The notes under the pieces: generated by a model
Told to the model about the DNA's origin: nothing
Databases searched by the model: none
The model's input: only the letters and a program-made list of their open reading frames with translations
Shown here: positions 1-44,658 of the stretch, one piece after another
How the letters are laid out: each line of letters starts with the position of its first letter
Position numbering within the stretch: the first letter of the stretch is position 1
Program-made: the position numbers and the translations under genes
DNA from: Hydnum rufescens UP504
Taxonomy: Eukaryota > Basidiomycota > Agaricomycetes > Cantharellales > Hydnaceae
DNA: 64,000 bases
Direction: 5' to 3'
NCBI GenBank assembly: GCA_014904985.1
Contig: MU128985.1
Location: 1 to 64,000, forward strand

Positions 1-239
1 AATTCGCTTTGCAATTAGGGATATCGTGCCTTATTGAGCTCTAACTTACTATCGCCCTCTTTTTCGTTTTTTTTTGGGAAAATATTTGCTAAATATTACT
101 TTATTACATGTCTATATGCCCGTTGTTACTATGTATTGTGCTTGTAACGCCAGCACGCTTTTTGAGTACCGGCAATTGCCGGCGTTGAATTGTACCGCCA
201 CAACTACACGCAGCAACGACCCCAGACAGCCTAGCCCAC

Positions 240-387
240 GACCACACACCCGCCGCTGCGGGTGTGTGGTCATAAGGTGAGTTTCTTTTCTAGTAGATAC
301 AACTGCGCAAAAAGAGCAGCGAAAGCTGCTCTTTTTGCGCTCCTTTGAATCTTTATACTAATCTATCCTTCATTATTATGGATTGAG
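240..387 (+). repeat. Array unit 1 (hairpins A1 and B1, putative intron 277-387)
   Basis: Hairpin A1 at 240-271 is a perfect 14-bp stem with loop CGCT. The donor GTGAGT starts at 277. Hairpin B1 at 305-340 is a perfect 16-bp stem closed by GAAA, a GNRA tetraloop. A branch-like ACTAAT lies near 358 and the acceptor AG is at 386-387, giving a 111-nt intron candidate. Confidence 0.75.
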
Positions 388-516
388 GCCTGGGCCAAGG
401 CACGACGAAAACGCGCGAAACGGCGAGGGCCCAGGCGGCAAGAGCCAAACCAAACCAAACAACAACGCACCAAACAAGAACCCGACGACAGATCGCCCAA
501 CGAGTGGCCCCAGAAA

Positions 517-656
517 CCACACCCGCTACGGCGGGTGTGTGGCACTGTTTATCGTGAGTCCCCCCCCCATAGATACAGCCGCGCAAAAGGTGCAGCAATA
601 GCCGCTCCTTTTGCGCTGCTTTAAATTTCTAACTAATCTATATTTTAATATTCTAG
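517..656 (+). repeat. Array unit 2 (hairpins A2 and B2, putative intron 554-656)
   Basis: Hairpin A2 (517-542) carries a TACG loop closed by C-G, a UNCG-class tetraloop, with a 2-nt bulge. The donor GTGAGT is at 554. Hairpin B2 (581-616) has 14 of 16 pairs and loop AATA. TAACTAAT precedes the TTCTAG acceptor ending at 656. This is the most eroded B stem in the array. Confidence 0.7.
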
Positions 657-746
657 GTACCAACATCCGTACGAGCCCCCAAACCGTGCCAAGTGAAAAC
701 CCGACGAACGCCCCACCAAAAATCGCCGAGCAAAGAACCGACCCAG

Positions 747-885
747 ACCAGATACCCGCCACGGCGGGTGTCTGGTTCTATGTAAGTTATAATTCTCGTG
801 TACCCATCAGCGCAAAAAGAGCAGCGAAAGCTGCTCTTTTTGCACTGCTTTCAATTCCTTTACTGACGGACTTTTATTATTTCAG
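747..885 (+). repeat. Array unit 3 (hairpins A3 and B3, putative intron 782-885)
   Basis: Hairpin A3 (747-776) pairs 13 positions around a CACG loop. One pair is switched relative to the other units (G-C where they have C-G) and pairing is kept. The donor GTAAGT is at 782. Hairpin B3 (810-845) has a GAAA loop and one mismatch near its base. The acceptor TTTCAG ends at 885. Confidence 0.72.
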
Positions 886-1070
886 GTCATGGCCTGGTCC
901 CAAGCACCAAACGAAACCCCGCCAAACGGAACCAAGCCCACAACACCACGCCAAATAAGCCACGCCGAGCCACGCCGAACGAAACTCCACCGAGCAAAAC
1001 CACGCCAAACCACAACGCAATACGACGAGAACGCGCGAGATGGGGACGCGCCAATCGAGCGGCCATGCGA

Positions 1071-1218
1071 ACCACACACCCGCTGCGGCGAGTGTGTGGT
1101 TCTATATAAGGTGAGTAAGGTTGTGCACCCCCAACAGCGCAAAAAGAGCAGCAAGTGCTGCTCTTTTTGCGCTGGTTCTAATTTATTTAACTAATACATG
1201 TATTATTTAGTATTTTAG
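1071..1218 (+). repeat. Array unit 4 (hairpins A4 and B4, putative intron 1111-1218)
   Basis: Hairpin A4 (1071-1100) has loop TGCG (UNCG class) and one mismatch. The donor GTGAGT is at 1111. Hairpin B4 (1137-1172) is a perfect 16-bp stem with loop AAGT. The branch-like AACTAAT is followed by TTTTAG ending at 1218. Confidence 0.74.
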
Positions 1219-1330
1219 GCTGAAGCCTGGTGAAACAAATACCCCCCGCCACGATACCCCACCCGCAAAGTGAAACCCACGAACGACGACGCGCCAAACG
1301 AAGACACAGGACGACGCCAAAATCGGTACG

Positions 1331-1463
1331 AACCACACACCCGCTATGGCGGGTGTGTGGTTCTATACAAGGTAAGTAATGCATCCCCAAGGGCGCAAAA
1401 AGAGCAGCCTTGCTGCTCTTTTTGCGTTCATTTTAATTTTAACTAACAAGCTTATTATTATAG
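1331..1463 (+). repeat. Array unit 5 (hairpins A5 and B5, putative intron 1372-1463)
   Basis: Hairpin A5 (1331-1362) is a perfect 14-bp stem with loop TATG. The donor GTAAGT is at 1372. Hairpin B5 (1394-1426) is a perfect 15-bp stem around CTT. AACTAACAAG is a strong branch-like motif. The acceptor TATAG ends at 1463. At 92 nt this is the shortest candidate intron of the array. Confidence 0.74.
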
Positions 1464-1571
1464 GTTATCGCCTCAACCACCCGCCAAACGAGAGCCGCAA
1501 ACACGACCCGTCCAGGAACATCCACCGACAACGGGAACGCACGACGCAAGACCCCAGGGACCCCGGGCGAG

Positions 1572-1720
1572 CCACACACCCGCTTCGGCGGGTATGTGGT
1601 AATTTTAAGATAAGTATTCCTCCCTATATAAGTACAACCGCGCAAGAGGAGCAGCGTATGCTGCTCCTCTTGCGTGGCTTTTCTTTTTTTTTTTTACTCA
1701 CGTATTATGCATTATTCTAG
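1572..1720 (+). repeat. Array unit 6 (hairpins A6 and B6, donor ATAAGT)
   Basis: Hairpin A6 (1572-1599) has a TTCG loop closed by C-G, the classic very stable UUCG tetraloop, with one mismatch in the stem. The expected donor reads ATAAGT at 1610 instead of GTAAGT, so splicing may be lost. Hairpin B6 (1641-1674) is a perfect 15-bp stem (CGCAAGAGGAGCAGC and its complement) with loop GTAT; two A-T pairs of other units are G-C here on both sides. The acceptor TTCTAG ends at 1720. Confidence 0.72.
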
Positions 1721-1854
1721 GTTATCGTCTGTAGCCAATCAAGACCCGCGACCCCGCCGAAGAAACACGCAAGAACGGAAACCCAAGAAACGAACCGCCC
1801 GCCCCCCCGTGCAAAACTGACTGCAAACTACGCGCAACCGCGGGCCAAAACGAG

Positions 1855-2001
1855 TACCACACACCCGCCTCGGCGGGTGTGGTACTACAAGGTAATTTGT
1901 TTTTGATTTTCTATATGTACAGTGATGCAAAAGGAGCAGCGCAAGCTGCTCCTTTTGCATGACTTCAAATTTTTTTTTACTAACATATGCAATTATTTTA
2001 G
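1855..2001 (+). repeat. Array unit 7 (hairpins A7 and B7, putative intron 1892-2001)
   Basis: Hairpin A7 (1855-1884) has loop CTCG with a 2-nt bulge. The donor is GTAATT at 1892. Hairpin B7 (1925-1960) is a perfect 16-bp stem closed by GCAA, a GNRA loop; one internal A-T pair of the main type is G-C here, changed on both sides. TACTAACATA precedes the TTTTAG acceptor ending at 2001. Confidence 0.73.
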
Positions 2002-2136
2002 AAGCTCCCGAAACGACGACCCACCCCAACGACGACGTGTGATCGGTACAAACGACCCGCCCAACGGTGAACCGCCAAGCCCCGCCCTCCCAATGGCCAC
2101 TGATAAGCCGGCCGAGCCCCGATGAAGCAAAGGAAG

Positions 2137-2248
2137 GCACCACACACCCGCTAGGGCGGGTGTGTGGTGCTACTAAGTATGTGATGACCCCGTCCAAGCT
2201 CCCGAGGAAGCAACGGAGTGTACCACACCCGCTACGGCGGGTGTGGTA
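2137..2248 (+). repeat. Terminal A-type hairpins A8 and A9 without a B partner
   Basis: A8 (2137-2170) is a perfect 15-bp stem with loop TAGG. A9 (2221-2248) is a perfect 12-bp stem with the UNCG-class loop TACG. No B hairpin follows either one. The sequence before A9 (AAGCTCCCGAGGAAGC) resembles that right after the unit 7 acceptor, so A9 may belong to a unit that lost its intron. The array ends here. Confidence 0.65.
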
Positions 2249-2606
2249 TGTTGTTTTAGTTGAATTTTTAGATAAATAAATAAATAAGTTAATAAGAATA
2301 AAATACAAGACTGCCAAATGAAAGCTGCCCCCTTATGATTATAATGAAACACCAGAGGGGGAATACAATAATAAATAATGGTGATTATCCCAGAGAAGCC
2401 TGTATGGTCCACTGTTGTCTGAGAATCTCCAAGTCCCAGTTTCGGCCAATTTTCGGCCATTTCGGCCAATTCTGGGCCAGGAGTGAAAGACCGAATTCGG
2501 CCGGAATAGTGATGGGACCTACTTAGGTACCATTATCTGCCCCGGAAGTGGTATCTAATTGGGTAGGCTTAGGTGACTGACCAAGGTGGCATGTTGGTGA
2601 CGTTCA
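2249..2606. other. Intergenic stretch with a short TTTCGGCCA repeat
   Basis: No gene is supported. Near 2440-2480 a nonamer close to TTTCGGCCA is repeated about three times in tandem. The stretch ends at the 5-bp target duplication GTTCA of the following LTR. Confidence 0.4.
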
Positions 2607-5963: not shown

Positions 5964-7040
5964 TCACTGTCTCATCAAGGACTCGCTCAGCCCAATACTA
6001 GTGATGGCATGTTGAAAGATCTTGCCATCCATGGTCCCGCAAGTGAACAGTCGAGAGATAAAGACAGGTCGCTTCTGACCATCACGATGAATACAGGCCG
6101 TCGCTTGCAGGTCGTGCGACGCATTCCAGTCACTATCAGGCGGGATCCTTGGATTAGGTTTAATTCCCCCGGCTTTCGCACTCAGGAGAATGCGCGTCAA
6201 ATCGGGGACGGACAGAACGTTGATCAGCTTGAGTGGTCTGGTTAACCTTGTCGACAAGCATTTCCCATCTACTTTTGTGGATTGGCATAATAACAATTAG
6301 TGCTTTTGATCCCTGCGGTAGTCCTAGCGCTCACTCATCGAGACGAAAATACATATACATTATCTCGGTGCAAAACCTCTCGATGACGTTTAGGGTCGCA
6401 GTGTAGTGTGAAACAACAGTAGCCCTCCCGTCAGTATCCGAGGTTGGCACATATTAGAGACATGGATCGTGCCATCAGTTCCTGAGTACCCCGCACTCGT
6501 CGAATGGGCACCCACATTTTGCCTGCTAGTATGCACCCTCGACCATCATGCTGCCTCATTCCAATCACGCCCTCGTACATGACCGTGACCCCTTCCCCGT
6601 AACGAGGCCGCAGGTTCTTCCCAATAACGGGGTCAACCACGACGGGAACAATCTCGCTGCCTCTAAGAGCGAAGCAGAACTCAGCAATCAATTAGCGTCA
6701 CGACTGGACTCATCATTCCTGGGACACTCACTCTCTATTGATTTTTTTTGATGCGACTCGGACTAGGCATAACAAGCACATTCGGTGCGCCTGCATCATG
6801 CCTACATTCAGCCTCTCGCTCAATGCACTGCAATCTCCTGATCTGGAAATTGGACTTGCCCCTGTCCCCACTTCTTAGGAGGTCCACGGAATGAATTGGC
6901 TGATACTGCATTGGCGGGCAGAAGGCAGGTCAAAACAGTATTGATGGAATGTGTAGGCACAATCACAGGTAGGATGAATTTAGAAATAGAACTAGGCCTT
7001 GGCTCCAGCATTGTTGTGGGGAGCTTAGACGAATGGCATG
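5964..7040 (-). pseudogene. Rad54B/Rdh54-type SNF2 translocase remnant, internally deleted
   Basis: On the minus strand, 6691-6445 reads an N-lobe start (VVVDPVIGK, LRPR, EGVTVMYEGVIGMRQHDGRGCILA) typical of Rad54B/Rdh54. The Walker A region that should follow (DEMGLGKT in the family) is replaced by unrelated residues. About 150 bp further on, 6250-5964 reads helicase motifs V-VI: LLSAKAGG, DSDWNASHDLQA, IHRDGQKRPVFI. Nearly the whole ATPase core is missing, so this is a deletion derivative. Rad54B-like proteins remodel DNA during homologous recombination in the nucleus. The 6445-7087 part is duplicated in inverted and direct orientation downstream. Confidence 0.75.
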
Positions 7041-7885
7041 AAGAGAGGGCGCTGCTGGGACGATAGTGACGCGTGTATCCGTGTCAATGTGCATTTTGAT
7101 GACCATAAATACCAGAGCCACAATGACCGCAACAGTGCCCTCTCAGAGATGGAGAGTTCAACGCCGCTGTGGAGGATCCTACTCCACTGGCGCAATGCTT
7201 CAGAACTGGAAACCCCGGCCGGTACATCCCGAGAAACTATACAACTGTACGGATACACGCGTCACTATCGTCCCAGCAGCGCCCTCTCTTCATTCATTCC
7301 TCTAAGCTCCCCACAACAATGCTGGAGCCAAGGCCTAGTTCTATTTCTAAATTCATCCTACCTGTGATTGTGCCTACACATTCCACCAATACTGTTTTGA
7401 CCCGCCTTCTGCCCGCAATGCAGTATCAGCCAATTCATTCCGTGGACCTCCTAAGAAGTGGGACAGAGGCAAGTCCAATTTCCATATCAGGAGATTGCAG
7501 TGCATTGAGCGAGAGGCTGAATGTAGGCATGATGCAGGCGCACCGAATGTGCTTGTTATGCCTAGTCCGAGTCGCATCAAAAACAATCAATAGAGAGTGA
7601 GTGTCCCAGGAATGATGAGTCCAGTCGTGACGCTAATTGATTGCTGAGTTCTGCTTCGCTCTTAGAGGCAGCGAGATTGTTCCCGTCGTGGTTGACCCCG
7701 TTATTGGGAAGAACCTGCGGCCTCGTTACGGGGAAGGGGTCACGGTCATGTACGAGGGCGTGATTGGAATGAGGCAGCATGATGGTCGAGGGTGCATACT
7801 AGCAGGCAAAATGTGGGTGCCCATTCGACGAGTGCGGGGTACTCAGGAACTGATGGCACGATCCATGTCCCTTATATGTGTGACT
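6445..7885. repeat. Inverted repeat with arms of about 640 bp
   Basis: Left arm 6445-7087 and right arm 7249-7885 are near-identical reverse complements around a unique spacer of about 160 bp. Both arms carry the Rad54B-type N-lobe fragment, so the reading appears on minus in the left arm and plus in the right. Confidence 0.8.
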
Positions 7886-8781
7886 GTTTTGTTAGATTCC
7901 GCATCATCTGAGTCGAATATTCCTCACTCTTGACCCCTATCCACAATAGTGAGATATATGCAGTCGTTCTCTCCTTGTTGTCCTCTGATAGTGTGTATCT
8001 TTCTCATATCTCCAGTGCATACCAGGAACGGTACGGTGCAGCGACGACGATAGCAGTACGCTTCAGAAATCAGGATCCGCTAGTCGATGCTTAGGCAGTC
8101 ACGAGGTTTTCTTTCAGCAAAGCCATCTGATTTTTCGTCTTCAGCCCAGCTACATTTCGATGACCGAAAATGAGCGGAGACGCAACGACAGCACCGAAAG
8201 GCCTTCCATCCATTGCCATTGTCCTGGGTCGCCCGCCCCCTTGTCTGGGACAAACAACCAAGACTAGCGATAACACGTCTGCAATGGACTGGGTGAGGTC
8301 GGCGTCGCTAATCATCGAGTGTCCATGAATTCATAATGAGAACGAATCTGATGACTGACTTCGCAGTGGGGAGGCAATCGGTAAGTTTGGCCTGAAAGCT
8401 CACTCTGTTAGGAAAAGCGTGGTCACTATGGGAGAAAACAGCATACGATTTGCATCCTTTCGTTTCCGCTTGAAATGGGCAACCTTGGCGAGAAGCACCC
8501 ATCTAGAGCTCCCGGGAGCATCTAATTGCGCTCTTACTTCACCCGGGCCACTATCTGCTTGGTCCTGGGCAAGTCCGACTTCGGTCCTACTGCTCACGAA
8601 GGAGAGCTGCATCTCCTGCGAATCCCAAAATATTCAAGACTACTATATATATAGTTGGAAGAAACATAGGTCGCACTTTGAGTTCATCCACTTCCTCTTT
8701 CATCCAATATTCTCGACTTGAAAAATGTGTAAGCCTGGGGTCACGCATCACAGCTGTTATCTGAGTTCGCGAACTGGCTGT
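7294..8781 (+). repeat. 1.5-kb tandem duplication, unit 1
   Basis: This unit is repeated at 8787-10279 with an offset of about 1,493-1,496 bp. Differences are few: a handful of substitutions and one-base indels. It contains a Rad54B-type N-lobe fragment on plus, an unassigned reading region on minus (8315-8091) and a coiled-coil gene fragment on minus. Near-identity implies a recent event or an assembly duplication. Confidence 0.85.
7300..7933 (+). pseudogene. Rad54B/Rdh54-type N-lobe fragment, copy 2
   Basis: The segment reads into VLVMPSPSR, then an intron-like stretch (GTGAGT near 7598 to CTCTTAG near 7664), then GSEIVPVVVDPVIGK and EGVTVMYEGVIGMR. As in copy 1 the Walker A region is replaced by unrelated sequence, and the reading ends at 7933. 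VMP-rich linker followed by VVVDP is the Rad54B/Rdh54 arrangement. No helicase core follows, so it cannot encode a working translocase. Confidence 0.7.
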
Positions 8782-8790
8782 TTGCTTCAT
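8400..8790 (-). pseudogene. Coiled-coil gene fragment (unit 1)
   Basis: The minus strand reads SREYWMKEEVDELKVRP, then LSFVSSRTEVGLAQDQAD. Both blocks are paralogous to the plus-strand coiled-coil gene at 31700-33760. The fragment is repeated at 9896-10415. Frames are interrupted, and only internal exons of the parent are present. Confidence 0.5.
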
Positions 8791-10279
8791 TCCTCTAAGC
8801 TCCCCACAACAATGCTGGAGCCAAGGCCTAGTTCAATTTCTAAATTCATCCTACCTGTGATTGTGCCTACACATTCCATCAATACTGTTTTGACCCGCCT
8901 TCTGCCCGGCAATGCAGTATCAGCCAATTCATTCCGTGGACCTCCTAAGAAGTAGGGACAGAGGCAAGTCCAATTTTCCAGATCAGGGGATTGCAGTGCA
9001 TTGAGCGAGAGGCTGAATGTAGGCATGATGCAGGCGCACCGAATGTGCTTGTTATGCCTAGTCCGAGTCGCATCAAAAAAAATCAATAGAGAGTGAGTGT
9101 CCCAGGAATGACGAGTCCAGTCGTGACGCTAATTGATTGCTGAGTTCTGCTTCGCTCTTAGAGGCAGCGAGATTGTTCCCGTCGTGGTTGACCCCGTTAT
9201 TGGGAAGAACCTGCGGCCTCGTCAAGGGGAAGGGGTCACGGTCATGTACGAGGGCGTGATTGGAATGAGGCAGCATGATGGTCGAGGGTGCATACTAGCA
9301 GGCAAAATGTGGGTGCCCATTCGACGAGTGCGGGGTACTCAGGAACTGATGGCACGATCCATGTCCCTTATATGTGTGACTGTTTTGTTAGATTCCGCAT
9401 CATCTGAGTCGAATATTCCTCACTCTTGACCCCTATCCACAATAGTGAGATATATGCAGTCGTTCTCTCCTTGTTGTCCTCTGATAGTGTGTATCTTTCT
9501 CATATCTCCAGTGCATACCAGGAACGGTACGGTGCAGCGACGACGATAGCAGTACGCTTCAGAAATCAGGATCCGCTAGTCGATGCTTAGGCAGTCACGA
9601 GGTTTTCTTTCAGCAAAGCCATCTGATTTTTCGTCTTCAGCCCAGCTACATTTCGATGACCGAAAATGAGCGGAGACGCAACGACAGCACCGAAAGGCCT
9701 TCCATCCATTGCCATTGTCCTGGGTCGCCCGCCCCCTTGTCTGGGACAAACAACCAAGACTAGCGATAACACGTCTGCAATGGACTGGGTGAGGTCGGCG
9801 TCGCTAATCATCGAGTGTCCATGAATTCATAATGAGAACGAATCTGATGACTGACTTCGCAGTGGGGAGGCAATCGGTAAGTTTGGCCTGAAAGCTCACT
9901 CTGTTAGGAAAAGCGTGGTCACTATGGGAGAAAACAGCATACGATTTGCATCCTTTCGTTTCCGCTTGAAATGGGCAACCTTGGCGAGAAGCACCCATCT
10001 AGAGCTCCCGGGAGCATCTAATTGCGCTCTTACTTCACCCGGGCCACTATCTGCTTGGTCCTGGGCAAGTCCGACTTCGGTCCTACTGCTCACGAAGGAG
10101 AGCTGCATCTCCTGCGAATCCCAAAATATTCAAGACTACTATATATATAGTTGGAAGAAACATAGGTCGCACTTTGAGTTCATCCACTTCCTCTTTCATC
10201 CAATATTCTCGACTTGAAAAATGTGTAAGCCTGGGGTCACGCATCACAGCTGTTATCTTGAGTTCGCGAACTGGCTGTT
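8787..10279 (+). repeat. 1.5-kb tandem duplication, unit 2
   Basis: This is the second copy of 7294-8781. It starts again at TTCATTCCTCTAAGC and ends at GCGAACTGGCTGTT, after which the two copies diverge. The copy runs on into coiled-coil gene sequence (to about 10415) that unit 1 lacks, so unit 2 probably holds the older junction. Confidence 0.85.
8790..9429 (+). pseudogene. Rad54B/Rdh54-type N-lobe fragment, copy 3
   Basis: Nearly identical to copy 2, with an intact reading from about 9133 through VVVDPVIGK and GMRQHDGRGCILA and the same replaced Walker A region. It differs by a short change (LRPRQG instead of LRPRYG). Read as a passenger of the tandem duplication. Confidence 0.7.
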
Positions 10280-13565: not shown

Positions 13566-14756
13566 GAAAAGGTAGGGAGTGGGGAGGTGGTCAGACAGTT
13601 GCGGATTTTGTTGGGTAATGACCTTGCGTCTTGGCACCATGGTTTCATCCGTAGTCAGCTTGAGGCTTGTCCAGAAGACACACCCAGAGGGTGCATGAGG
13701 CCTCGCCCGGAGATAATTTGATTTTAAAATCTATACTCAACCCTAGAATAGGTGCCCCGTCCTAGAGCAATTATTGCTCCGTTTTCAATCTGGGCACTCC
13801 GGAAATCTCGGGCCCCATCGTAGTCTTCCAAAATATGCATGTGCTTGAGGTTTTGGGCGTAAATTCCCATATTTAGAATACACAGGAAATGCCCAGAATG
13901 GGTTGATTTATGTGAATATTTATGTCCGGAATGACCGAGGACAGCTCCAATGTATGCACTGCCTTTATTTACGGGGCCGTAGGGTGTCACTGGGCCCATT
14001 TAATTTAAACCAATTTCTTGTCACAGCATATGGGCACTTGCACATCTTAACCAGTGGTGCATATACAAATATAATGGTCAAAAGATTAATTTTACACAGA
14101 TTCTGGGGGAACACTCTGGGAACCAGATCCCAATACATTTAACTGAAATTGTCCAAAATGTGGAAACAAATGAAAATAAAAATAAAATAAAACTTTAGGA
14201 ATGGCTTGATTATTAGTCCGGAATACCTCCTAGCACTGCTAGGAATACCTGGTTGACAGTCGTATCCAAACGTGGATGGGAGCGGATGCATAGATGGTGC
14301 ACTCCGGAAGGGGGAGGGGGAGCAGGATGGGGATGTGAATCTCATAGACCACAAAGGCCTGCAGATTTCATGTTTGGTGGCGCTTACAACCACCTCAAGC
14401 AGCCCTATTTCCACACTTAATTAAACTATCTTTTCCTGGTATTATAGCACACTCTGATAGTTTTCCTGAGTCCGCACATCAACCATCTTGACTTTCTTCA
14501 TCACTACAGTCTTTTTTTTTCTTAGTTGGAGCCCTAGTCCTTATTTATTACTATTTTATTCTATTATAGCGAGTTGCAAGTGTGTATTTTGACACAATGA
14601 AACTCAAAAAAAAAAGAAAAAACACAAGACCAGCACCTATAGGCACTGGCCAGGGAGTCCTAATTTCCTAGGAGAGTAGAAGACACCCAGGAGCCCATGC
14701 ACACCAAGTTTGGTGTGCCGGGGCTCCAGGGTTATCGCGGTATTCGTGGGTTTGTG

Positions 14757-14781
14757 CCGGCACTACAATAGGTAGTGCCGG
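14757..14781 (-). repeat. Hairpin D, left arm
   Basis: CCGGCACTAC and its exact complement enclose a 5-nt loop. The right arm keeps the same stem near 16930 with one G-T wobble. It lies downstream of the intron module in the outward direction. Confidence 0.6.
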
Positions 14782-14907
14782 ATATCATTCGTCCGGGTAC
14801 TGGGGCACCCAGGTTTCGTTCCCGCTTTCATAATCGTTGGTGTTGGCGCGGTTATCCCGGATGTAGGGGCCAGGACCCTTGCCAAGCTCCAGCAATGTAC
14901 GAGCCAC

Positions 14908-14943
14908 GCAAACAGCACCGGCCCTTAGGCCGGCACTGTTTGC
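14908..14943 (-). repeat. Hairpin C, left arm
   Basis: A 16-pair stem starting GCAAACAG with a 4-nt loop and two wobble-type pairs. Compared with the right-arm copy at 16766-16801, one G-C pair here is A-T there with both sides changed. Confidence 0.65.
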
Positions 14944-15029
14944 GCCGCTTTTACACCACTTGGGGCCGGGAAAAGGGGGAGAGGGGGGGGGGTTGTTACT
15001 ATCAAGGGAGACCCCTGGGGGGAGCGGGC

Positions 15030-15165
15030 CTATAGGGCGGAGTAGTGTCAGCAAAAAATCAAAAGGAGGGCAAGAAGAGCAGCTGAGGCTGCTCTTCTTG
15101 CCCAAATGTATATAATAATAATAAAGACCCACCATATCCCACACCCCAGCCTTTCTGGGGTGTGG
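15030..15165 (-). repeat. Double-hairpin intron module, left arm
   Basis: Read on minus: hairpin A (15139-15165, stem CCACACCCCA), donor GTGGGT at 15132, hairpin B (15068-15103, perfect 16-bp stem GGGCAAGAAGAGCAGC), acceptor CTATAG ending at 15030. The intron candidate is 103 nt, the same length as in the right arm, and the spacing matches the 1-2.2 kb array. Confidence 0.72.
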
Positions 15166-15826
15166 TGGGTCTCCCGCTCGTCGGCGTCGCATACTGCGTT
15201 CATTCGAGTGCCGGCAAGTGCCACTGCACTCAACGCCGGCAATTGCCCGGATTGGCGCCAAAGCAACCACAGAAAGACACAATACAGCTTAGTAGAAATA
15301 GACACAACAATGTAAATACATATTATATGTATTAGTTTAATTTTTATTCCAAAAGACCGAGGGAAAGGCCCAAAATGAGCAAGTTCCATTATAGGGCTGG
15401 ATTGACAGCTCAAAATTTTATTTGAGGGGCTTCTGTGCATCAGATTGATCCTATTTTCTAATATGTTACTCATATGCATATTTAATGCTAGTGAAATGGG
15501 TTAGCAGAATGCTCCCTGAGATTTTAGAACCCATCAATCCCACATCCCCCTTAAGGGTGTTGCACCATATTGGACATTTTGGAGGCTAAATTTCTTGAGT
15601 GTTTATTTAAGTAATTATCCATGGGACTCTATTATCCTACATTTCTGGTTTCTATATCCCTTAGGGATGCTTCAAAACCAGAATTCCCATATTTGGGTAT
15701 GTGTATTTCCTGCCTTGTGAGCTTGAATCTGAATATTTGGAGGCAGTATTTGGGATTTGCATTCTACTAGGGCGTGTCCACATTACCGGGATATTTCCGG
15801 AAATGTATTCCAAATTATGATTTTCG

Positions 15827-15878
15827 TGGCTTCGGCAGTTCCAGAAGTCTAGCTAGACTTCTGGAACTGCCGAAGCCA
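15827..15878. repeat. Perfect 52-bp palindrome at the axis
   Basis: Both halves are exact complements and meet without a spacer. Such junctions arise at fold-back or head-to-head joins and are hard to replicate and clone. Confidence 0.9.
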
Positions 15879-16440
15879 TGAAGATCACAATTTGGAATAC
15901 ATTTCCGGAAATATCCCGGTAATGTGGACACGCCCTAGTAGAATGCAAATCCCAAATACTGCCTCCAAATATTCAGATTCAAGCTCACAAGGCAGGAAAT
16001 ACACATACCCAAATATGGGAATTCTGGTTTTGAAGCATCCCTAAGGGATATAGAAACCAGAAATGTAGGATAATAGAGTCCCATGGATAATTACTTAAAT
16101 AAACACTCAAGAAATTTAGCCTCCAAAATGTCCAATATGGTGCAACACCCTTAAGGGGGGATGTGGGATTGATGGGTTCTAAAATCTCAAGAAACATTCT
16201 GCTAACCCATTATACTAGTATTAGATATGTATATGAGTAACATATTAGAAAATAGGATAAATCTGATGCACAGAAGCCCCTCAAATAAAATTTTGAGCTG
16301 TCAATCCAAGCCCTATATGGAACTTGCTCATTTTGGGCTTTTCCCCTGGTCTTTTGGAATAAAAATTAAATTGATACTATATAATATGTATTTACATTGT
16401 TGTGTCTATTTCTACTAAGCTGTATTGTGTCTTTCTGTGG

Positions 16441-16677
16441 TTGCCTCGGCGCCAATCCGGGCAATTGCCGGCGTTGAGTGCAGTGGCACTCGCCGGCACT
16501 CGAATGAACGCAGTATGCGACGCCGACGAGCGGGAGACCCACCACACCCCAGAAAGGCCGGGGTATGGGATAAGGTATGTATTTATTATTGATTATATAC
16601 ATTTGGGCAAGAAGAGCAGCCTCAGCTGCTCTTCTTGCCCTCCTTTTGATTTTTGCTGACACTACTCCGCCCTATAG
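16441..16677 (+). repeat. Double-hairpin intron module, right arm
   Basis: A leader (GGCAATTGCCGGCGTTGA, near 16461) identical over 17 bp to the start of the 1-kb array is followed by hairpin A (16542-16568, one mismatch), donor GTATGT at 16575, hairpin B (16605-16640, perfect 16-bp stem, loop CTCA), branch-like TTGCTGAC and acceptor CTATAG ending at 16677. A-to-donor is 6 nt, donor-to-B 30 nt and B-to-acceptor 37 nt, as in the array. Confidence 0.75.
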
Positions 16678-16765
16678 GCCCGCTCCCCCAGGGGTCTCCC
16701 TTGATAGTAACAACCCCCATACCCCCCTCCCCCTTGTCCCTGACTCCAAGTGGTGTAAAAGTGGT

Positions 16766-16801
16766 GCAAACAGTGTCAGCCTAAGGGCTGGTGCTGTTTG
16801 C
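16766..16801 (+). repeat. Hairpin C, right arm
   Basis: GCAAACAG plus eight further positions pair fully with the 3' strand, three by G-U wobble, around a 4-nt loop. It lies about 90 nt after the putative acceptor of the module. Confidence 0.65.
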
Positions 16802-18085
16802 ATGGCTTGTACATTGCTGGAGCTTGGTGAGGGTCCTGGCCCCTGCATCCAGGATAACCGCGGCGACACCGACGATTATGAAAGCGGGAACGAAACCCGG
16901 GTGCCCCAGTAACCCGGACGAACGATATCCGGCACTACCTATTGTAGTGTCGGCACAAACCCACGAATACCACGATAACCCGGAGCCCCGGCACACCAAA
17001 CTTGGTGTGCATGGGCTCCTGGGTGTCTTCTACTCTCCTAGGAAATTAGGACTCCTGGCCAGTGCCTATAGGTGCTGGTCTCGTGCTTTTTTTTTTTTGA
17101 GTTTCATCATGTCAAAATACACACCTGTAGCTTGATATTATAGAATAAAATAGTAATAAATAAGGCTGAAGACTCCATCTAAAAAAAAGACTCTGTAATG
17201 ATAAAGAATGTCAAGATGATTGATGTGTGGACTTAGGAAAAGTATCAGAGTGTGCCATAATATATTACCAGGAAAAGATATTCAAATTATGTGTGAAATA
17301 GGGCTGCTTGAGGTGGTAGCAAGCCCCACCAAACATGAAATTTTCAGGCCCTTTGTAGTCTATGAAATCCACATCCCCCTCCTGCTCCCCTCCCCCTTCC
17401 GGAGTGGACCGTCTATGCATCTGCTCCCATCCATATTTTGATGCGGCCATCAACCAGTTATTCCTAGCAGTCCTAGGAGTGTTCCGGACCGATGATCAAG
17501 CCCTTCTTAAGGTTTTTATTTTTATTTTTATTTGTTTCCACATTTTGGACAATTTCAGTTAAATGCATTGGGATCTGGATCCTGGTGTGGCTCTCCTAGA
17601 ATTTGTGTAAAATCAATCCATTTGACCATTATATTTGTATACACACCACTGGTCAAGATGTGCAAGCGCCCATATGCCGTGTGACAAGAAATTGGTTTAA
17701 ATTGAATGGGCCCAGCAACGCCCTATGGTCCCGTAAATAAAGGCAGTACATGGTACTCATAAGAGTGCATACATTAGAGCCATCCTGGGTCATTCCGGAC
17801 ATAAATATTCACATAAATCAACCCATTCTGGGCATTTCCTGTATATTCTAAATATGGAAATTTACGGTCAAAACCTCAAGCACATGCATATTTTGGAAGA
17901 CTAGGATGGGGCCTGAGATTTCCGGAGTGTCCGGATTTAAAACGGAGCAATAATTGCTCTAGGACGGGGCGCCTATTCTGGGGTTGAGTATAGATTTTAA
18001 AATCAAATTATCTCCGGGCGAGGCCTCATGCACCCTCCGGGCGTGCCTTCCGGACAAGTCTCAAGCACTGTTTACGGACTAATAT

Positions 18086-33762: not shown

Positions 33763-34199
33763 TATGGGCATTATACTGTAAAAAAAAGAAATATCTGAAC
33801 GAATGAAGAAATGAACGAACGGACTTTTGAACAAATGAACAGATTTTTGAATGAACAGATTTCTGAACGAACGGATTTTTGAACGAGCGGATTTTTGAAC
33901 ACAGGCAGCCCTATTTCGGTACCTAATTAGATAGTCTTTTCTTGGTAAAATAGTCTAATAGGCCTATTGGACTATTTTACCAAGAAAAGACTACCTAATT
34001 AGGTACCGAAATAGGGCGGCCTAAGGTGTGTTCAAAAATCCATTCATTCAAGAGTCTGCTCGTTCAAAATCCCGCTCATTCAAAAATCCATTCGTTCAAA
34101 AATTCGTTCGTTCAAAAATCCGTTCATTCAAAAATCCGTTCATTTCTTCATTTCTTCATTCGTTCAGATATTTCTTTTTTTTACAGTATAATGCCCATA
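33763..34199. repeat. 437-bp inverted repeat with minisatellite arms
   Basis: From TATGGGCATTATACTGTA to its complement at 34199 both halves match. The core (33902-34023) is a near-perfect fold-back around 33962/33963 and contains CCCTATTTCGGTACC, the sequence of the gene-tail repeat at 22858 and 35268. Outside it, both arms are made of a degenerate 16-18-bp tandem motif close to ATTTTTGAACGAACGG. MITE-like, but no clear target duplication. Confidence 0.8.
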
Positions 34200-40432: not shown

Positions 40433-43400
40433 ATGCATCGCGCTCCAGCTCACCTCCACCCACTCTTCTCCCCCGCATCCTCCGACTTTCTTCCCAGCGA
40501 CACAGCACTTCTTACCAACTGGAGCACATATGCCAACTCACCCATCACAGACCCATTTGACGAGGACAGGAAACCGTCATTCGATCACTTCGCTGGTCTT
40601 GACCTCCCCGACCATTCATACCAAGCGCTCGAGGATCCAGGCATGCTTCTAGAGGATCTCATGCAAGAAGATGCCTATGAGTACGTTGATATCCCCCTCC
40701 CACTCCTTTTCCGCTTCTGCTCACACTACAGTTCATTAGAACTAATCCTATAAACTCTACCTATTTTCCCTCTTCCCAACCTCTCCCACCGGCCAAGTTC
40801 GAGCCCACCCTTCCCGCTCTCCCGTCCTACCCTTCTCCCCCCGCATCAGACGATGCGAGGCAACCTCTCACGGTGCATGTTCCCCCCTCGGATGAGTCTC
40901 CTGCTCCTTCATCCCCCAAGACCCGTTTCTCCATCGAAGCAAACTCTTTCGAATCCTCATCTCTTCAGAATCTCCTCGTAACTACACCTAATGCCCCTGT
41001 CCTAATACACCCATCATCACCCCACCACGAACATCCTTATCAAAGTTGGTCCCTGCTCTGAACCCCTACTGGACCCTGCGAACTGACCCTCTCCTAGCTT
41101 GCCCATCCTTATTCACAATGTGCCTAGTGTGGGTGCAAAGTCTCGAGTGGAGACACAGATCAAGATGACTTTAGATCTTGCTCTCCCCACTGACCCCGCC
41201 CTTTCTGCGTATGAACGAGTCGGTAGTTGGAAGTGGCTCCGGTTGCCTAAGGGGAGCTCTACGAGACGCCGCCCCCGCAAAGAATGCAAGCCAGGTAAGA
41301 AGGAACTGACCCCCTTACTCTTGCTACGAGAAACTAACATAGTCCAACAGAAGCTCAAGTGGACGAGACACTAACGCTGTCGGTCGCGGTCACCTGTGCC
41401 TCAGATCCGTCCATGCCTGTCAGTGCATGCACGAACTGTCTGGCACGCGAAGCCAAGCGAACCGAGCGCAAAAAGGCCGCTCGTGTCCGACCGCCGCGAC
41501 GCTGAATCCTCAGGATTCTGAGGACGACATACCCAGAAATTCGTCTCCCAAGTCACCCATCCAGAAGGACGGTGGTGGTATCGTCGTGTTCAACTGTCCC
41601 GAGCTCAACGAATTTGCAGATGGCAGGGTCGTCCTTACCAGTTCGGGTCACTTGTTACTGCCGACATCACCGCGAAAAGCTAGGATTCAGGTGCAGCTTT
41701 TGTTCCAAATACAATCTAGTCCGAGAATTTGGCCGACCATGCTCATGATCTGCTCCATCCGTAGGATTGCTTTCACGATGGCTGATACTCAAGGTCGTGT
41801 GGTTGGACGAGGAAGTACACCTCCAATCATGATCACTGATGATCACAAGAGTGTTATGAAGAATCCGCTCCCAACCCCTGCTGTCGAGGAGCCCGAGGAG
41901 CAACCCAAACGGAAGCGTCGTCTAGCGAAGGATGCTCCGGATCCAGAGAATGAGCCTCGATCCAAGCGTCGTGCCAAAGAGCCATCGCCAGCAATTGTGA
42001 CCCCCAAGACCATCTTCCAATCTCAGTCTTACGCACATGGGAACGACAGTAGCCCTAGCATCTCTCATGCGACCGTACCAGGACACACTTCTCAGTCTCC
42101 ATCAACTTTCACAACAGCTCCATCCTCACCACAGATCATATCACTTCCCTCCCCCTTGGGCGTGTATCTCCATTATCCGGTGACCAACGACAACGATACG
42201 TTCATGCAAACACCCGAAGAACTAGATGTCCTCTCAGCATCCTTGGCTGCGGCCTCTGCTGCATCCGCTGAGCTACGGAATCCCACATCTCCACCCAACG
42301 CGTTTTCCCCTAGCACCCTCTTCAACACCACCTATCCTTCCCCTTCCCCTTCCTCCCGTGGCCCCCCACCAGGTCCGCAGATTCATCGTCTCATCCCTGC
42401 ATCAGGTCCCACGCATGGTGGGATCGAAGTCACCGTTCTCGGGCCAATTTCTTACCCACTCATCGATGCGTTTTCGGTGATACTGTGGCCACCTCGACAC
42501 AGATGTGGAGCGAGAATACCCTTGTATGTCTTTTGCCCCCCAGTGCTTGTCCTGGCCCCGTGGTCGTTAGCTTTGAGGGAATTCCCCTTGCTGTTGGGGG
42601 TGGTGCACCAGGTGACGGGCGGATACTGCAACTATTCAATTATCTTGACAATTCAGATCGGGCGTTGTGAGTGCTTGTGAATGACAGGGATTTGATCCAA
42701 GTTCTAATGGCCGTTTTTCTGGTTTCCTTAGGATGGAACTTGCCCTTCAAGTTGTCGGATTGAAAATGACTGGCCGAATAGAGGAGGCAAAGAATGTCGC
42801 CATGCGCATCGTTGGTAACAATACCAATGGTGGCCCTGAGCCATCCTCGATGACCTCCACTGGCCTCACGTCAATGAATAATCTCGTTGCTGACGCGGAA
42901 GCAGTCGCCCATTCCGTACATTCCCGAGCGGGCTCAGACTCCGAATCAACGCATCTTATGCTCTCGTCATCATCGAGCCGTGACTTCCAATCCGTTATCA
43001 TCGAGTTCTTGTACCTCCTCGATGTAGATGTGCCGACAACGTCAGTCGTCACGACGCACGAGGCCGTCTCGCATCCCAACGATTCAGGACAGACCCTTCT
43101 CCACTTGAGCGCTATACTCGGTTTTCACCATCTTCTTAAGCATCTCATCAGCCACGGCATCGACCTGGACGCGAGAGATGCCAATGGTTACACAGCATTG
43201 CACTTTGCAGCCTTGTGTGGTCGACTGGCCTGCGCTCGTATTCTCGTCGAGGGTGGTGCGGACGTCGAGATCGTGGAGGCTCGTGGACGCACGGCACGCG
43301 AAATTGCGAAATGGAGGGACCAAGTCGACGTTGAGATCTTATTGGAGGATATCGAGTCTCGTCTTGTGTTTGGGTCCACATCCAACGGTGATGAAGCAGA

Positions 43401-44658
43401 CGAGAGTGACATCGAGGGTCTCGTAGTGACGACGCGGCCCTGTACTCATCCAACGACGCGGAGGGGATGGAAGATTCGTTCTACTCCATATCACCAACGA
43501 TGACTATCAGACCTAGCGGTGCAAATGATATAGATCATATCCGATACCTGTCAGATTCAGGTGACTCTGGCAGTGAGGATAATCTTCTCGAGTCGGAACC
43601 CCAATACGAGGAGAAAAAGCTTCCTTTGGAGCCTGTAGCACCTCCTCCCCACCCCCCGATTACCCTTCCGCCGTCCCCGAAAAGTCACCACCGTCTCTCT
43701 TCCACCGCACGTTGTCTCATCTCCAACCTCCACCCCTTCCTACATTACCTGCAATGCCAGGACTCCCCATGCCACAGTGGGGTCTATTCCCTAATCAGCT
43801 CCAGCTCCCCCAACTCCAATTCCCTCAATTGCCCCACCTACCACATTTCCCCGACATCCCAATGGTCTTCCCGGTTCAGATGCCAACACCATCGTGGCCT
43901 GCAAATTTCCCGTGGCAAGCCGGCCCTGCCCAGAGCGGGAAGCCGGAACACGTTCAGCAACAGCAGGGCCAGGGCATGCTTTGGGGTGCGTACGGTCTAG
44001 CTTCGCCATGGCTTGGGTTCTACCCCGGTCGAGGGCCACCTCCCAATCCAGAGAAGGAGCAAGAGCAAGAGCCACCAATGTATACTCCACCAGCGCCTGC
44101 CGGTGTGGCCGTGCCTGATCCTTTGGTACCACCACCAAGCTCTGCTGAACCTGTGCAGTCGTCATCATTGGGCCTGACTGTCGACACCGAATCGAGCAGT
44201 GAGCTATCGATACCGAAGCCATCCCTTTCCACCAAATCGGCGAAGCTTGCCCGTCGTGCTGGCTACAAACAGACACGCTTCGAGGAGCGTGACATTCGTG
44301 CATATGAGGATCGCTCGAAGAAGGTCCAGAAATTGAAAAGTACGAGTATTTGTTTGCTGCAGAAACTATGGAGTAGATTTTCTGATGGGACTCCCCTTTC
44401 GGTTCATTCAGGTGATCAATTTTTGGGATTAGATCGAATGCTCGTTTTGTTCTGGCTCCCTATTTTACTTAGTGAGTTGCGGTTCTTCATACGCTTGTCG
44501 AGTTTTGCTGTGGTTCAATCGCTGACGAATGATCCGTTTCCTTTTTTTCAGTCGTCTTAGGATATGGTTTATATCAAGGCGTCCCGGTGGTATTGACCAC
44601 GGTGTACGACGTTGCTGCTTGGGTGCTGCCCGAACAACGCATCGCTGCTCTCGCGTGA
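40433..44658 (+). CDS. Mga2/Spt23-like membrane-anchored transcription factor
   Basis: Domains in order: an acidic N-terminal activation-like region (about 40433-41048); a conserved family block with GAKSRVETQIKMTLDLALPT, ACTNCLAREAKRTERKKAAR, IVVFNCPELNEFADGRVVL and TPPIMITDDHK; an IPT/TIG domain (LIPASGPTHGGIEVTVLG); two ankyrin repeats (SGQTLLHLSAILGFHHLLKH, NGYTALHFAALCGRLACARI); a Pro-rich linker; and a C-terminal hydrophobic anchor (DRMLVLFWLPILL) ending at 44658. Placed introns: 41295-41350, 41691-41764, 42667-42731, 44340-44411, 44472-44551; less sure 41049-41097 and one near 40690-40798. In yeasts the family is ER-anchored and released by ubiquitin-dependent processing to control fatty-acid desaturase genes. 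Five one-base shifts (about 41495, 41637, 42441, 43423, 43678) break the frame though every domain is well preserved, which suggests sequence errors. Start choice uncertain. Confidence 0.8.

Follow-up and report, generated by a model that had tools for sequence, protein, structure and literature searches.

The 64,000-nucleotide window of Hydnum rufescens DNA analysed here opens with an array of hairpin-bearing units, which comparison with other genomic copies identifies as the right arm (to about position 2588) of a dispersed, foldback-like DNA element with long inverted repeats. The sequence evidence supports these being the intron-like units of a putative multi-exon non-coding RNA, and each arm of the element is most likely its outward-directed non-coding gene, the mature RNA of which would be a string of exon hairpins (A).

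The array at the start of the window

Between positions 240 and 2252 the window carries seven units, each with an exon hairpin A followed by a donor, an intron hairpin (B), a branch motif and an acceptor; after the seventh unit there are two further A hairpins without an intron. The order was present in 7/7 units, two of which have one damaged splice site, and the tandem repetition of this order that a sequence-only reading of the DNA had claimed was borne out. A scan of positions 1-2300 that allowed G-T pairs and loops of 3-6 found 11 uninterrupted stems of at least 13 bp, compared with none in each of 30 neighbour-preserving shuffles. A covariance model of A plus B gave the seven units scores of 70-113 bits, all seven being among the 24 source sequences of the model. 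The distances within units are tight, as had been noted, but the earlier figures of 5-11, 22-33 and 37-47 nt were corrected on measurement to 4-11 nt (A to donor), 19-33 nt (donor to B) and 34-44 nt (end of B to end of intron).

The intron coordinates listed by the earlier reading were reproduced for units 2-5 and 7, but the end given for intron 1 (387) was wrong and the sixth unit had been omitted. For intron 1 the acceptor position of the family is 381, and four related copies (L013, L015, L020 and L026) read TTCTAG followed by ATTGAGGCCT, whereas the window reads TATTATGG followed by ATTGAGGCCT; as the family AG has been lost in the window copy, 387 is merely a fallback AG. The sixth intron lies at 1610-1720, with its donor altered to ATAAGT. 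With the acceptor of intron 1 and the donor of intron 6 damaged, 5/7 introns of the array are intact.

The extent previously assigned (1..2250) falls short of the feature at both ends, as alignments to other copies continue past 2250 to about 2588, and the start precedes the window. Base 1 of the window is base 1 of its contig (C77), which truncates the element; because the element begins before this point, it lacks its left arm here, along with one half of its centre. Positions 1..239 show 72-82% identity, in both orientations, to stretches in the centres of other copies, and the copies do not keep a start codon found near 131. The features of the window, with strand and basis, are as follows.

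1..239, +: right half of palindromic centre and 5' part of first exon; putative promoter/start region (comparison with copies)
240..271, +: hairpin A1, 14 bp, 4-nt loop (stem scan, covariance model)
277..381, +: intron 1, donor GTGAGT; family AG at 380-381 reads GG here (comparison with L013, L015, L020, L026)
305..340, +: hairpin B1, 16 bp (stem scan)
516..542, +: hairpin A2 (covariance model)
554..656, +: intron 2, GTGAGT...TTCTAG (splice motifs)
581..616, +: hairpin B2 (covariance model)
746..777, +: hairpin A3 (stem scan)
782..885, +: intron 3, GTAAGT...TTTCAG (splice motifs)
808..847, +: hairpin B3 (stem scan)
1071..1102, +: hairpin A4 (covariance model)
1111..1218, +: intron 4, GTGAGT...TTTTAG (splice motifs)
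1135..1174, +: hairpin B4, 18 bp (stem scan)
1330..1363, +: hairpin A5, 15 bp (stem scan)
1372..1463, +: intron 5, GTAAGT...TTATAG (splice motifs)
1391..1429, +: hairpin B5, 18 bp (stem scan)
1571..1600, +: hairpin A6 (covariance model)
1610..1720, +: intron 6, with an altered donor, ATAAGT, in the window copy (splice motifs)
1638..1677, +: hairpin B6, 18 bp (stem scan)
1855..1884, +: hairpin A7 (covariance model)
1892..2001, +: intron 7, GTAATT...TTTTAG (splice motifs)
1925..1960, +: hairpin B7, 16 bp (stem scan)
2136..2171, +: terminal hairpin A8, without a following intron unit (stem scan)
2217..2252, +: terminal hairpin A9, without a following intron unit (stem scan)
2265..2310, +: A/T-rich, AATAA repeated; possible polyadenylation region (read from sequence)
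2575..2588, +: right terminus GACTGACCAAGGTG (7 alignments stop at 2588)
13658..18066, no strand: second palindromic element, one A/intron-B unit per arm (self-alignment)
15066..15167, -: left-arm A+B unit of second element, GTGGGT at the donor position (78.9 bits, from a model that had its right-arm twin among the source sequences)
15818..15887, no strand: centre of second element, 33-bp stem, 4-nt loop (stem scan)
16540..16642, +: right-arm A+B unit of second element, donor GTATGT at ~16575 (75.1 bits, itself in the model)

The second element aligns to itself over 4.47 kb and is 90.9% self-complementary; a search for a target-site duplication around it found none.

A dispersed palindromic element

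At least 237 matches to the element DNA were present in the genome (from the best 40 of 1545 candidates), and a 17-base right-end pattern with up to two mismatches was found at 396 genomic sites, against one for the control. Two divergent arrays with a palindromic segment in between were seen in 15/20 array loci fetched, and in most array copies read the arms of tandem units face away from a palindromic centre that they share. The self-complementarity of this centre was 98.6-99.4% in L013, L018, L021 and L022, 92.4% in L017 and 90.5% in L010. The A/B unit also occurs in further palindromic families with different ends. Inverted repeats that are long, nearly perfect and account for the bulk of the element, as in foldback transposons, were found in L032 (98.1% over 3.6 kb), L040 (99.6% over 3.9 kb) and L041 (97.8% over 3.3 kb); the family-1 arrays (e.g. 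L018 and L021) share this feature in part, because they are near-perfect at the centre only. Matching terminal inverted ends starting CACC were present in L029, L030, L031, L032, L037, L040 and L041, and the ends of L018 and L021 are imperfect (CAGCCTGGTCAGCC / CAACTCAGTCAGCC).

Exact 8-bp target duplications were found in 4/25 element loci scanned, two of the array family (L018 and L021) and two of other palindromic families (L040 and L041), with partial duplications in L037 (7 of 8 bp), L022 and L023 (7 bp each) and none found in the rest, among which L036, L038 and L039 had poorly defined outer ends. The scan kept the best four hits per locus, so that in palindromic loci a genuine duplication might have been masked, and its many hits to self-palindromic 8-mers within palindromes were disregarded. 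The exactly duplicated targets flank whole elements of 3.3-4.8 kb.

No transposase belonging to the element itself was recognised in the elements read (the frames of L029, L031 and L036-L041 were listed, not each profile-searched), which suggests that they were probably mobilised in trans. A DDE_3-like gene lying centrally in L037 was considered as the element's own transposase and rejected as part of a nested element, since a relative on C141 has the same gene within the same boundaries and no arms; those boundaries are a 40-bp TIR adjoining TA, and a search of solved structures for the nested protein returned nothing relevant. KDZ transposases have at least 154 matches in the genome (from the best 150 of 584 candidates). 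The A/B unit was absent from the three KDZ loci examined (L033-L035), which gave no support for KDZ elements as its carrier. Listed KDZ positions showed no overlap by eye with the 20 array loci; the element ends listed were the first 100 of 396, and a member bearing KDZ may exist.

Hairpins, splice signals and exons

Genome-wide, cores of hairpin B numbered 4,974 (control 5) and those of A 1,441 (control 0) in 63 Mb. The paired hairpins that the earlier reading had noted, at set distances about a 5' splice site, are supported, and they occur in many dispersed copies. Rfam, at its gathering score, gave 0 matches in the window. In 24 units, hand-chosen from those found, 12/30 pairs had changes on both sides (41 cells), a result reached in 0/500 shuffles, although such controls overstate covariation among related sequences; structures slid along the same alignment gave at most 4 pairs. 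The same trend appeared when every hairpin with an intact core was aligned on that core. A process that perfects palindromes could also mimic covariation.

Information per column was determined for 28 thinned units, from 70 kept by filters that required, among other things, a loop of 4 and an intron of 80-130 nt; it averaged 1.49 bits for A and 1.43 bits for B and was 0.29-0.40 bits for exon bodies and for the spacer that precedes B, values for hairpins and exons being less biased than those for donors and acceptors, which were chosen by pattern. Loops were of 4 bases with variable sequence in 91/98 units for A and 85/98 for B, and the outer parts of the stems pair without fixed sequence. Thermodynamic prediction on the first 36 thinned units gave a donor accessibility of 0.44, compared with 0.41 when both hairpins were scrambled, and an effect on donor and branch exposure in the expected direction in 24/36 and 20/36 units, respectively. 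This effect was too small to claim that the hairpins expose the donor or branch site. The hairpins may control splicing, as the earlier reading proposed, but a direct role of A is unsupported, since predicted access to the donor hardly depends on them.

Of 251 unit hits, 104 were set aside because both stems of at least 8 bp were not recovered. Strict patterns identified both donor and acceptor in 98/147 of the remainder, with a median intron of 104 nt, and donor, branch and acceptor followed in order at the functional spacing of a U2 intron in the same number; one or other splice site was missing in 49/147. No donor motif was present on either side of 74/179 A cores, terminal A hairpins counted. 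On the sense strand, with both arms pooled, the T content of 129 exons averaged 12.6% versus 37% for 187 introns.

Alternative readings, mechanism and known systems

The earlier description of the array as multi-exon and non-coding is supported by exon lengths that keep no frame (46/43/40 modulo 3 among 129 exons) and by the unconserved start codon. Hairpin A is moreover read in differing frames from exon to exon, exon bodies are not conserved, and related copies lose the start codon or break the frame; on these grounds a protein-coding array was rejected, and we regard a multi-exon protein gene, as in the public annotation (BS47DRAFT proteins), as extremely improbable. It would account for the few stops in the T-poor exons and for the similarity of the spliced translation to 14 annotated proteins, but all 14 are from H. 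rufescens itself and are software predictions. Two of the 14 (P0101 and P0112) were mapped onto fetched loci: introns open at the donor after an A hairpin in 5/6 cases for P0101, which uses some other acceptors, and in 3/10 for P0112, most of whose introns open elsewhere, several within an A hairpin. The public annotation of this genome calls for caution, as it includes proteins predicted from transposon exons that are probably non-coding. The suggestion that the units are remains of a hairpin-based mobile intron did not find support, because the target duplications, where found, flank whole elements; the boundaries found were likewise those of whole elements and not of the unit itself. It is very unlikely that the A/B unit moves by itself to create new introns, as introners do, even though related structured introns number thousands and fungal introner-like elements are structured too (PMC8469720, in part). 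Among the best 40 units listed, 26 lack a listed partner within 5 kb and could be single units or arms with an unscored partner, and two of the first 50 B cores listed are isolated (C1:444897 and C2:7611), but the other 48 lie in clusters of at least five, and none of the loci read showed a unit within an ordinary gene, though single units of that kind may exist elsewhere.

Two further explanations dispense with the RNA. The hairpins might act as DNA, A and B being inverted repeats for transposase binding or cruciform extrusion that transposition or the upkeep of the palindrome would depend on, with the introns incidental. Loops of variable sequence and near-constant length are what dimer sites or cruciforms would have, palindromy in several elements reaches as far as the full length, and terminal A hairpins lack introns; we nevertheless consider this unlikely, as a DNA role would not call for hairpins ordered and spaced in a constant way relative to donor, branch and acceptor, for a scarcity of T on the sense strand that is confined to exons, or for outer stems that pair without fixed sequence. 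A quite unlikely reading is that the hairpins have no function, a palindrome-perfecting process (template switching or hairpin-templated repair) keeping hairpins and arms self-complementary while arrays arise by tandem duplication. Palindromy is near-perfect from 40 bp to 3.9 kb, and such a process may well operate and could alone yield the paired changes, but it would not hold donor, branch and acceptor in constant positions, preserve the same hairpins across several families whose exon bodies are unconserved, or produce T-poor exons.

The best explanation as a whole, to which we give about an even chance, is a foldback-like element whose arms are non-coding RNA genes with hairpin introns, the RNA serving the element. 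The palindrome would provide two near-identical outward promoters, from which RNA polymerase II would transcribe U-poor exons broken up by short introns. Hairpin B would fold away ~37 nt, presenting the spliceosome with an intron of roughly 67 nt, and splicing would leave a mature RNA of strong A hairpins on U-poor linkers with an A-only end. More speculatively, this RNA might act as a multivalent binding platform for the element's transposase or for a host factor that binds RNA or mediates silencing, and a cleanly spliced transcript might be spared splicing-coupled RNA silencing. It is rather doubtful that the elements form a transposon class encoding no protein but a dedicated structural RNA, with divergent multi-intron transcripts off a palindromic promoter that are spliced to multivalent hairpin strings and needed for mobilisation or escape from silencing, the RNA module being common to several families with unrelated ends.

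Non-autonomous DNA transposons are usually viewed as inert passengers for which the ends suffice, and foldback or long-TIR transposons (e.g. MULEs) have long inverted arms, repeats in the arms and target duplications. In this mushroom, several palindromic families have in common a covarying hairpin module with fixed splice signals. If transcribed, such passengers would harbour non-coding genes on which selection acts, and would offer thousands of natural variants for the effects of donor-adjacent and intronic hairpins on splicing, as well as material to ask whether well-spliced transposon RNA is protected from silencing. In the open-access titles and abstract openings searched, which included introners, stwintrons and MULEs among others, we found no precedent for palindromic transposons that carry paired-hairpin introns in tandem, nor a description of one tight hairpin in each short intron with another just upstream.

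The elements share long inverted arms, intra-arm repeats and, at some loci, target duplications with foldback elements and MULEs, among which is Muta1 (PMC5225508, in part), but differ in that the arms bear tandem arrays of spliceosomal intron-like units that contain hairpins and lie between non-coding exons poor in U. KDZ (Zisupton) transposons are abundant in Basidiomycota (PMC7550596, in part), and their numerous transposases in H. rufescens could act in trans, although the three KDZ loci carry no A/B unit. In Cryptococcus, also a basidiomycete, SCANR ties silencing to how efficiently transposon transcripts are spliced (PMC5851062, in part), whereas for Hydnum this is solely a proposed selective pressure. 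With introners, some of which carry TIRs and target duplications, and fungal introner-like elements (PMC9860276 and PMC8469720, each in part), the Hydnum units share many structured intron copies per genome; here, however, the introns are cargo in a larger element, often in tandem, and the exon hairpin is part of the unit. The symmetrical stwintrons of Hypoxylaceae are likewise self-complementary introns multiplied in a fungus, but they are nested, at gene positions, without flanking duplications and symmetric at the intron ends (PMC8469720, in part), whereas those of Hydnum are simple introns with one internal hairpin each.

Paired hairpins and splice signals

Seven units with the order that the sequence-only reading had described (exon hairpin A, donor, intron hairpin B, branch, acceptor) were present in the window, together with two additional A hairpins and, further along, an element of a second kind:

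240-2001, seven A/B units in tandem
2136-2171, terminal A hairpin without an intron unit, after the seventh unit
2217-2252, second terminal A hairpin without an intron unit
13658-18066, element that is 90.9% palindromic over 4.47 kb, each arm holding one A/B unit

Positions 1-2300 held 11 uninterrupted stems of at least 13 bp, compared with none in each of 30 shuffles, and an Rfam search of the window gave no match. The sixth donor is damaged in this copy (ATAAGT), as is the first acceptor, judged by comparison with four other fetched stretches of the genome (L013, L015, L020 and L026). The window covers positions 1-64000 of contig C77, in a genome of 63.2 Mb and 539 contigs. Across that genome the B core RAGCAGCNNNNGCTGCTY occurred 4,974 times, against 5 for a reversed control, and the A core CACACCCGCNNNNGCGGGTGTG 1,441 times, against 0 for its control; by eye, clusters of five or more spanning up to about 6 kb accounted for 48 of the first 50 B cores listed.

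When donors were not preselected, the donor motif was found on exactly one side of 105 of 179 A cores, on both sides of none and on neither side of 74 (expectation, 4.4% per side). Branch and acceptor lay on at least one side of 124 of 161 B cores (expectation, 10.6% per side), and 94 of the 161 had an A core within 110 nt. The median intron over 98 units was 104 nt, or 67.5 nt without B. In 28 thinned units, A averaged 1.49 bits of information per column, B 1.43 and the T-rich stretch that follows B 1.00, with 0.29-0.40 bits in the exon bodies and in the spacer that precedes B; the hairpin loops were variable. For covariation, 24 units were chosen from several families, and 96.6% of the cells in their alignment paired. 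Changes on both sides were seen at 12 of 30 pairs (41 cells), a level reached by 0 of 500 shuffles, and the number of pair types was reached by 2 of 500, with the caveat that related sequences may exceed shuffles even without structure; sliding the partner gave at most four such pairs. A core-anchored test gave the same trend at a number of outer positions (B position 17, for instance, showed four pair types), other positions being no better than shuffled. Families L037, L038 and L040 have an A core that is itself altered on both sides, from CCCGC/GCGGG to CCAGT/ACTGG. C-to-T type differences were plentiful in the hairpins of copies such as L012, L019, L022 and L023 (CACCCGC to CACCTGC), and look like decay driven by RIP or methylation.

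A protein gene was rejected, since the lengths of 129 exons modulo 3 were divided 46, 43 and 40, hairpin A occurred in different reading frames, related copies lacked the start codon or had a broken frame, and all 14 annotated proteins of similar sequence came from Hydnum rufescens. The non-coding product proposed earlier is thereby supported at the level of sequence. Sense-strand T averaged 12.6% in these exons, against 37% in 187 introns (both arms pooled). Two of the 14 gene models could be placed, full-length, on L026 and L016. In BS47DRAFT_1422667, five of six introns open at the donor following hairpin A; in BS47DRAFT_1360946, three of ten do so, the others opening inside an A hairpin or elsewhere. 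Introns agreeing at both ends were 108 nt (GTAAGT...CTCTAG, L026) and 104 nt (GTAAGT...TTCCAG, L016). These models are gene-finder support for part of the predicted splice signals, not proof of splicing. Judging from the two that were placed, these proteins and the 12 similar ones seem to have been translated in silico from transposon exons that do not code for protein.

The array as an arm of a palindromic element

The dispersed copies by which the idea was to be judged were indeed numerous, a 201-base array piece giving at least 237 matches across the genome (40 of 1545 candidates scored). Twenty loci were fetched, and later 15 further stretches. With a profile of the window's units, outward-pointing pairs of arrays (left on the minus, right on the plus strand) were found in 15 of the 20, and one main orientation in L009 (the window itself, cut by the contig end), L012, L015, L016 and L028. 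Both arms were present in L031; L029 and L032 had at most one weak unit per arm, and L030 had A hairpins alone. Sequence shared between loci stopped sharply at unshared flanks. These copies identify the array as one arm of a mobile element.

Right ends read GATGACTGACCAAGGTG, found at 396 genome sites with up to two mismatches (control, 1), which is not a count of arrays because some elements have this end twice and others lack arrays. Left ends read CAGGCTGGTCAGTCA; a longer pattern of fixed spacing found 15 sites only, because the spacing varies. Complete copies with exact 8-bp duplications were L018 (2102-6801, CACACAGT) and L021 (1389-6138, AGTTAAAC); L022 and L023 had 7-bp duplications, and none was found at the other array loci. 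At the right flank of L031 the end of a family-1 element abuts a B hairpin of another unit (...GCTGCTCCTTTTG|CACCTTGG), suggesting nesting at hairpins.

The segment between the arrays was itself a palindrome: 654 bp in L018 (99.4%) and L021 (99.1%), 665 bp in L013 (98.6%), 549 bp in L022 (98.7%), 673 bp in L017 (92.4%) and 1 kb in L010 (90.5%). L030 and L032 were palindromic throughout and L031 over most of its length. A search with the element at 13658-18066, for which no duplication was found, led to further families, several with divergent pairs (40 of 158 candidates scored). Six of these loci (L036-L041) had arms of 0.8-2.2 kb or were whole palindromes, at 97-99.7% identity, each arm with one A/B unit; duplications were exact over 8 bp in L040 (CACATTTG) and L041 (ATGTTATG) and matched at 7/8 in L037. 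Among 40 of 222 candidates scored with the L037 unit, 14 had a divergent partner no more than 5 kb away and 26 had no listed partner. The window also holds a palindrome at 33812-34114 (83%; 29-bp stem near its centre, 33932-33993), and, within 6448-10279, a tandem duplication of 1.49 kb (7293-8782 and 8786-10279, 99.2%) accompanied by an inverted copy of 0.6 kb at 6448-7082 (98%).

The search for a transposase

Some relatives of a 681-residue frame in L037 carry Pfam DDE_3, and its best matches were BS47DRAFT_* proteins of Hydnum rufescens UP504; a Pfam search of the frame itself gave no match. A relative on contig C141 has the same two end points without arms, so the DDE_3-like gene is nested in the palindrome centre and was ruled out as the element's own transposase. 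This DDE_3-like transposon (L037:1980-5218; C141 in L042 and L043) lies exactly at the centre in L037, and both copies have telomere-like GTTAGGGTTAGGGTTTAG at the end. L040 has a different centre at that place; palindrome centres may be preferred insertion targets. KDZ transposases were abundant (at least 154 genome matches, 150 of 584 candidates scored; several frames of 700-980 aa), and the A/B unit was absent from the three KDZ loci inspected for it. As no transposase of their own was found in the loci read, the elements are probably non-autonomous. Elsewhere in the window, a gene at 41427-43500 combines ankyrin and SPT23/MGA2-like DNA-binding regions in neighbouring frames, the DNA-binding match falling below the curated cut-off.

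Possible function and relation to known systems

At the level of genomic sequence, these results establish mobile palindromic elements with outward arms, in which paired hairpins and splice signals occupy fixed places and the exons are T-poor and non-coding. We infer that the palindrome would supply two outward promoters and that the arms would be spliced into a string of A hairpins. More speculatively, the resulting RNA might be a binding platform, and splicing quality might protect it from silencing, a possibility that SCANR in Cryptococcus brings to mind (PMC5851062); these are the weakest steps. Thermodynamic prediction speaks against the hairpins directly affecting how exposed the splice sites are. 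The main rivals to an RNA-level role are that the hairpins act as DNA, or that they arise from a neutral process that perfects palindromes, but both leave unexplained why splice signals and T-poverty occur together with the hairpins.

We know of no close counterpart of the RNA-like module. A search of open-access literature found no description of tandem paired-hairpin introns within palindromic transposons, and the one paper that it gave for Hydnum rufescens with transposable elements, PMC7550596, makes no mention of such introns in the sections consulted. There is precedent for transposons with inverted repeats, for introners and for structured introns in fungi (PMC9860276, PMC8469720). Set beside these, the element is classed as a foldback-like, probably non-autonomous DNA transposon that carries an RNA-like module.
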